In this document: positions 28,101 to 28,342 of the stretch, in pieces | Layout: the number at the start of each line of letters is the position of its first letter | Position numbering within the stretch: the first letter of the stretch is position 1 | Source of the DNA: Acidobacteriaceae bacterium | Lineage (GTDB): Bacteria > Acidobacteriota > Terriglobia > Terriglobales > Acidobacteriaceae | Length of the DNA stretch: 34,208 bases | Direction of reading: 5' to 3' | Assembly: GCA_003152195.1 (NCBI GenBank) | Contig: PLZN01000067.1 | Span: 908 to 35,115 of the forward strand | Notes under the pieces: generated by a model | What the model was told of the DNA's origin: nothing | Databases searched by the model: none | Seen by the model: only the letters and a program-made list of their open reading frames with translations | Position numbers and translations under genes: made by a program

Positions 28101-28197
28101 GCCAGCAACTCAGGATCCCTTGTTGGGAGATGTGGGATCAAATGACGGAACGACTTAGCGTCCGCGGAATCCACATCTGGCACAAAGAACATGTCAG

Positions 28198-28306
28198 ACC
28201 CGGATCTCCTGTACGCGGCACCACCCATGGTCGCGTGTGCGGTCCCGGCCAGCCGGGACCGCATGAAGTTCGTTGATCCCGACAGGCCCAACAGGAAATC
28301 CGGGGG
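28198..28306. repeat. Second copy of the ~110-bp palindromic module of 719-828
   Basis: acccggatctcctg ... tgcggtcccggc/gccgggaccgca ... gcatgaagttcg ... acaggaaatccggggg; same order and near-identical length as 719-828. Confidence 0.75.
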
Positions 28307-28342
28307 TATGGGGCGTGAAGGCTTTGTGGTTGATTAGACCGT

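Follow-up and report, generated by a model that had tools for sequence, protein, structure and literature searches.

REPtrons and TIRtrons consist of genes for RAYT or TIRYT tyrosine transposases together with flanking palindromes or inverted repeats, and TIRtrons have been reported from Acidobacteria among others (PMC2817692; PMC3733652). From Pseudomonas, composites of a REP and an unrelated stem-loop have been reported in hundreds of copies (PMC3733652). Bacterial MITEs are defined as non-coding elements of 70–300 bp that have inverted-repeat ends of ~15 bp, many copies and small target duplications (PMC3733652), and REP palindromes are known as targets of insertion sequences (PMC1525189). 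Hairpins are also subject to template switching during replication, which homogenizes their arms and can invert their loops (PMC8794818; PMC8604942).

We analyzed a stretch of 34,208 nucleotides from the genome of an Acidobacteriaceae bacterium (hereafter the window), in which two copies of a hairpin module of ~109 bp are found. The module is dispersed in many copies, is nested precisely at fixed points of REP-like palindromes that also occur empty, and keeps the pairing of two helices. As in REPtrons and TIRtrons, one locus of this genome (i.e., L144) has a RAYT gene flanked by palindromic repeats in inverted orientation, of which many further copies are dispersed. In contrast to REPtrons and TIRtrons, a single 109-bp stem-loop is nested here at fixed points in at least four palindrome families and also lies in unique DNA, has inverted-repeat ends of its own and is accompanied by empty sites. 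A RAYT gene flanked by inverted repeat copies, as is typical of REPs and REPINs, was found at L144 only; the module itself is not a palindrome of 20–40 bp with a GTAG-type end tetranucleotide, and it was not filed as a REP because it is ~109 bp long with CCCGG ends.

The module resembles bacterial MITEs in being short (~109 bp), non-coding and gene-free, with terminal inverted repeats (13 bp), many dispersed copies (104 with intact ends) and, at REP sites though not consistently in unique DNA, small apparent duplications. It differs from them in having no known parent insertion sequence, in the strong structure covariation of its inner hairpin and ends and in being mostly nested in REPs. Like the insertion sequences that target REP palindromes (PMC1525189), it inserts into REP palindromes, but what is inserted is a short gene-free palindrome. 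Simultaneous two-sided stem changes and loop inversion are likewise features of template-switch mutations in hairpins (PMC8794818; PMC8604942). Those reports concern RNA genes and coding inverted repeats, whereas the module is a mobile DNA family, and they do not describe the swap of an entire 16-nt tip between families of elements.

One genome thus combines many element copies, target palindromes with and without the module, a linked transposase, two-sided changes and apparently exchanged tips. Two questions can therefore be tested directly. The first is whether palindromic elements choose each other as targets while folded as single strands; the second is whether selection or template switching gives rise to the compensatory changes in the stems of mobile hairpins. 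The family is well suited as a natural system for studying the spread of hairpin DNA and the maintenance of its fold.

Two homologous modules and their family

The features of the two modules in the window are as follows.

719–828, + strand: copy 1 of the module, whose inner tip is the common S1
758–787, + strand: inner hairpin of copy 1, CATGCGGCTTTC...GAAAGCCGCATG
28198–28306, + strand: copy 2 of the module, a non-autonomous hairpin element whose inner tip is the rare S2
28199–28211, + strand: left terminal inverted repeat of copy 2, CCCGGATCTCCTG, outer helix
28238–28263, + strand: inner hairpin of copy 2, TGCGGTCCCGGC-CA-GCCGGGACCGCA, with tip S2
28292–28305, + strand: right terminal inverted repeat of copy 2, CAGGAAATCCGGGG, outer helix

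The two segments (109 and 110 bp for copies 2 and 1, respectively) are true homologues that align end to end, as an earlier note made from the letters of the window had stated. Both carry CCCGGAT[T/C]T[T/C]CTG at the left and CAGGAAATCCGGGG at the right; between these lies a strong hairpin, after which comes CATGAAGYTCG. The same note had observed that the inner stem differs on both sides at once, which proved correct: the arms are exactly complementary within copy 1 (758–769/776–787) and within copy 2 (28238–28249/28252–28263), and their sequences differ between the copies on both sides. As single-stranded DNA (+ strand), both segments formed far better folds than their shuffles, with z of -5.3 and -5.1. 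No Rfam family matched at its gathering score anywhere in the window. Copy 1 has as neighbors genes for a PrpD C-terminal fragment and for a mandelate racemase/muconate lactonizing enzyme-type protein. The genes around copy 2 converge and encode an amidohydrolase and a xylose-isomerase-like protein.

The family to which both copies belong is gene-free and has a 13-bp terminal inverted repeat (CCCGGATTTCCTG/CAGGAAATCCGGG) that encloses a strong inner hairpin of 9–12 bp, beside which lies a weak left hairpin, in ~109 bp altogether. Its own genome is a fragmented assembly (6.8 Mb in 631 contigs, 77% complete), in which more than 360 first-look candidates were obtained for either copy. Perfect ends at the right spacing were found at 104 places, compared to none for a reversed control pattern, so the similarity within the family is not due to chance. 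In a 660-kb sample of this genome we counted 48 copies, which extrapolates to several hundred; this total is probably somewhat high because some contigs were included in the sample for the copies already seen in them. None of 398 other genomes of the class showed the intact-end pattern; among named genomes it occurs only in BP_1, an Acidobacteriaceae MAG with three good copies. The copies analyzed below were collected with two queries and are thus not a random sample. As judged from crude ORF calls, the copies showed no preference for convergent gene pairs of the kind that a terminator-like use would give.

Nested insertion into palindromic host repeats

The two copies interrupt or adjoin the following palindromes.

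581–627, - strand: intact (empty) inverted REP1 palindrome adjoining copy 1
697–719, + strand: left half of the REP1 palindrome that hosts copy 1
829–852, + strand: right half of the REP1 palindrome that hosts copy 1
28170–28198, + strand: left part of the REP2b-type palindrome that hosts copy 2
28307–28314, + strand: right part of the REP2b-type palindrome that hosts copy 2

The earlier note had described copy 2 as standing alone without outer arms. This description does not hold: copy 2 interrupts a REP2b-type palindrome, and its flanks, when joined, match an empty REP2b at L103:8675–8719 of the same genome with three substitutions. At copy 1, what had been taken for outer arms A and hairpin B of an element at 584–850 are really pairings between two REP1 copies. 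The view that the element is modular survives in part, given that the module is found in several host repeats and in unique DNA, although copy 2 is not the arm-free example it was thought to be.

With a host-repeat score threshold set at the 99th percentile of 300 random positions, ~80% of the collected copies lie inside REP1, REP2, REP2b, REP3a or REP3b (70 of the 78 copies with tip S1 and 4 of the 13 with tip S2). The insertion point is essentially constant within each REP family, with a few REP1 variants off by some bases. Empty hosts occur as well: 43 exact REP1 palindromes were counted, and the 660-kb sample contained 16 REP1, 3 REP2, 4 REP2b and 5 REP3 without a module. Comparisons of empty with filled sites gave apparent duplications of TA/GTA (REP1 and REP3a), GA/CGA (REP3b) and GA/GGA (REP2), while copies in unique DNA had no consistent target duplication. 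The modules of BP_1 use the same REP3b site and REP1-like repeats. At L131:7389–7633, a module inside REP1 has the loop of its own inner hairpin interrupted by additional sequence, which contains another partial module-like end; palindromes are thus nested three deep at this locus.

A fixed insertion point within each REP family could also arise if the module had entered each family once or a few times and then multiplied passively in composites moved by RAYT, with little or no mobility of its own. Module subfamilies do cluster by host repeat (24 changes on the body tree, compared to 51.5 for shuffled labels), and a RAYT gene is flanked by REP2 plus module. The distances among modules and among their host REPs were, however, not significantly correlated (REP1, r = 0.19, p = 0.07; REP2, r = -0.06, p = 0.60), and co-spread, which we had considered on the basis of distance correlation, is not shown for this reason. 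Passive multiplication is improbable given that repeated independent insertion is needed to account for the host sites, which number at least five, for the different offsets within REP1-like repeats, for copies hosted by a second hairpin family (E2, described below) and for copies in unique DNA.

Pairing and two-sided changes

RNAalifold applied to 63 aligned copies recovered the outer helix and the inner hairpin, with two-sided changes at nine pairs. That covariation would extend to further copies, as the earlier note implied, was borne out with 106 distinct copies: standard pairs made up 96.9% of the pair cells, two-sided changes were present at 16 of the 24 pairs (6.7 in shuffles and 6–10 in slid controls), and the covariation score was 0.200 vs. 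0.111, all in an alignment that was fitted to the structure and hence leans towards it. A sequence-only alignment of 13 looser-relative elements from three genomes gave independent support, with two-sided changes at 19 of 26 pairs. Complementarity is maintained via two-sided changes in both helices, within as well as between genomes, and true single-pair changes also occur among S1 copies (e.g., L063 and L045). These results support the part of the earlier note's claim of compensatory change according to which the folded state matters for the element. The difference between the two copies on which that claim was based, in contrast, appears to be mostly block replacement of the hairpin tip.

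The looser relatives in BP_1 and in G026, which is from another family of the same order, have different ends and inner stems and retain both helices, with altered pairs such as CCCGAGTTCGTCAC/GTGACGAACTCGGG, GCAGCTTTCCTG/CAGGAAAGCTGC and GTGGTTCTC/GAGAACCAC. That the fold persists there after both helices have changed in sequence suggests that spreading depends on it. The two copies in G026 (L159:1501–1616 and L162:1501–1616) share their flanks; their inner hairpin is nearly that of the module, while their 14-bp ends (CCCGAGTTCGTCAC/GTGACGAACTCGGG) are quite different. Elements with ends like AGAGCGGATTTCC and the same two-helix fold were also found in BP_1 (L207–L211) and in the module's own genome (L131:2080–2184 and L137:7004–7108). 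A pattern search for elements bounded exactly by TAGAGCGG...CCGCTCTA returned none; the looser relatives exist nevertheless.

Apparent exchange of hairpin tips and the E2 family

The inner hairpin carries either the common tip S1 (CTTTC...GAAAG), as in copy 1, or the rare tip S2 (TCCCGGCCAGCCGGGA), as in copy 2; S2 is present in 13 of the 91 full copies. Judged from the sequences, the stem difference between copies 1 and 2 appears to be the exchange of a 16-nt tip as a block rather than stepwise covariation. Because S2 is scattered over element bodies and recurs in E2, this striking two-sided change is mostly block replacement, and one such replacement of the tip supplies most of the two-sided cells in the inner stem. 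Outside the hairpin, the closest relative of each S2 copy is an S1 copy, a result that is weak by itself since S1 copies dominate. On the body tree, which is poorly resolved, S2 required 11 changes against 12.4 expected from shuffled labels and thus had no extra clustering, whereas tip orientation was clustered (9 changes vs. 18).

The second family of dispersed hairpins, E2, has ends of the type AGAGCGGTTTCACA...TGTGAAACCGCTCT and an inner hairpin GTGGTTTTC...GAAAACCAC. Its usual tip, TTTTC...GAAAA, was found in 45 exact hairpins in the same genome and in one elsewhere among 200 relatives.

L100:1500–1660, L117:8980–9180, L127:830–950, L178, L181 and L189: loci of E2

Three E2 copies carry the S2 tip and some host nested modules; another (L149:1388–1501) is located within the 5' portion of a gene for a Y1 transposase and probably disrupts this gene.

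The exact 20-nt core of the S2 tip occurs 13 times in the genome, 10 times in modules and three times in E2, and is absent from 150 relatives. The full S2 hairpin with its GCGG stem was found only inside modules. We therefore rejected the idea that the S2 stem is a free-standing repeat, as well as an S2 hairpin match in G036 (L009), where the GC-rich sequence is unrelated and its second arm is imperfect. The tip replacement could in principle be an assembly effect, but S2 recurs in 13 places and two families. Nine of the 13 S2 copies and 8 of the 78 S1 copies are in unique DNA (Fisher p = 1.5e-5, with biased collection queries), and the same contrast in the 660-kb sample had p = 0.14 with hand-assigned counts; given this bias and the non-significant contrast, a preference of S2 copies for unique DNA is not claimed.

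Tentatively, the tip may be a transferable cassette, in which a near-invariant 16-nt palindrome (TCCCGGCYRGCCGGGA) would have taken the place of the native tip in many independent events, both in E2 and in element bodies with differences of up to ~28% elsewhere in their sequence, through exchange between folded hairpins (i.e., by template switching or hairpin-to-hairpin strand exchange).

Compensatory change alone does not show selection, because template switching homogenizes the arms and can invert the loops of hairpins. Two-sided changes of purely mutational origin, with template switching at replicating hairpins keeping the arms complementary without any selection on the fold, are possible although we consider them the less probable case. 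Consistent with such an origin are the exchange of S2 as a block, the template switching documented in other hairpins (PMC8794818; PMC8604942) and the occurrence of tips in two forms, A and B, related by reverse complement: for 17 of the 21 form-B tips, a form-A tip exists that is their exact reverse complement. Shuffling of the columns, however, gave 14.6 such matches on average and reached 17 in 267 of 5000 trials, so loop inversion is suggestive rather than proven; the persistence of the two-helix architecture in BP_1 and G026 after sequence change in both helices also argues against a purely mutational origin.

Transposase genes and the proposed mobilization of the module

Eight Y1 transposase genes were identified, of which only that at L144 is flanked by modules. 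It encodes a REP-associated tyrosine transposase (NF047646, 119.1 bits with a cut-off of 80) and bears an inverted copy of REP2 plus module on either side. Both of these modules have an altered left end (CCCGTATTTCCTAT), and one has the matching right-end change TACGGG.

With middling confidence, we regard the module as a MITE-like, non-autonomous hairpin element that is nested in, and probably spread with, RAYT/REP systems, and whose pairing is maintained by template switching and/or hairpin recognition. Recognition and movement would involve the single-stranded hairpin form, and the enzyme would most likely be a RAYT-type Y1/HUH transposase, which could act on the element itself or on the REP that carries it, such that composites would spread together. 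Template switching at the replicating hairpin may be part of what preserves the complementarity of the arms; it would also explain the inverted-looking tips and perhaps the block exchange between copies 1 and 2. This reading is favored by the 104 copies with intact ends, the empty and filled palindromes, the use of the same REP3b site and of REP1-like repeats in BP_1, the two-sided changes, the RAYT gene of L144 with REP2 plus module on its flanks and a second RAYT-like gene beside two inverted REP3 copies. Against it are the apparent long terminal inverted repeats and target duplications of the module, neither of which is known for Y1/IS200-type transposases (PMC2817692), the fact that modules flank only one of the eight Y1 genes, the non-significant correlations between module and host-REP distances and the inconsistent duplications of copies in unique DNA.

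These same ends and duplications are what an ordinary MITE would have, that is, an element left over from a DDE insertion sequence and mobilized in trans by a transposase, which would recognize the sequence of the terminal inverted repeats and duplicate 2–3 bp, with insertion into REPs as a target preference and the inner hairpin as incidental. The 13-bp inverted ends, the apparent TA/GTA and GA/CGA duplications at empty/filled pairs and the known insertion of insertion sequences into REPs (PMC1525189) agree with such an origin. We nevertheless consider it the less probable origin, given that no autonomous parent element with the same ends was seen in the ~0.7 Mb of the genome that was read, that the duplications are inconsistent at unique sites, and that relatives with entirely different ends retain the fold, which recognition of a specific end sequence would not require.

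A second, shorter RAYT-like gene at L150 scored 62.9 bits, which is below the cut-off of 80. Directly downstream of it are two inverted REP3 copies (L150:1946–2126) in a REPIN-like layout without a module. At L144:1113–1230, the reading frame of the RAYT gene continues through the flanking REP2 into the module; module sequence may therefore be annotated as protein in such genomes.
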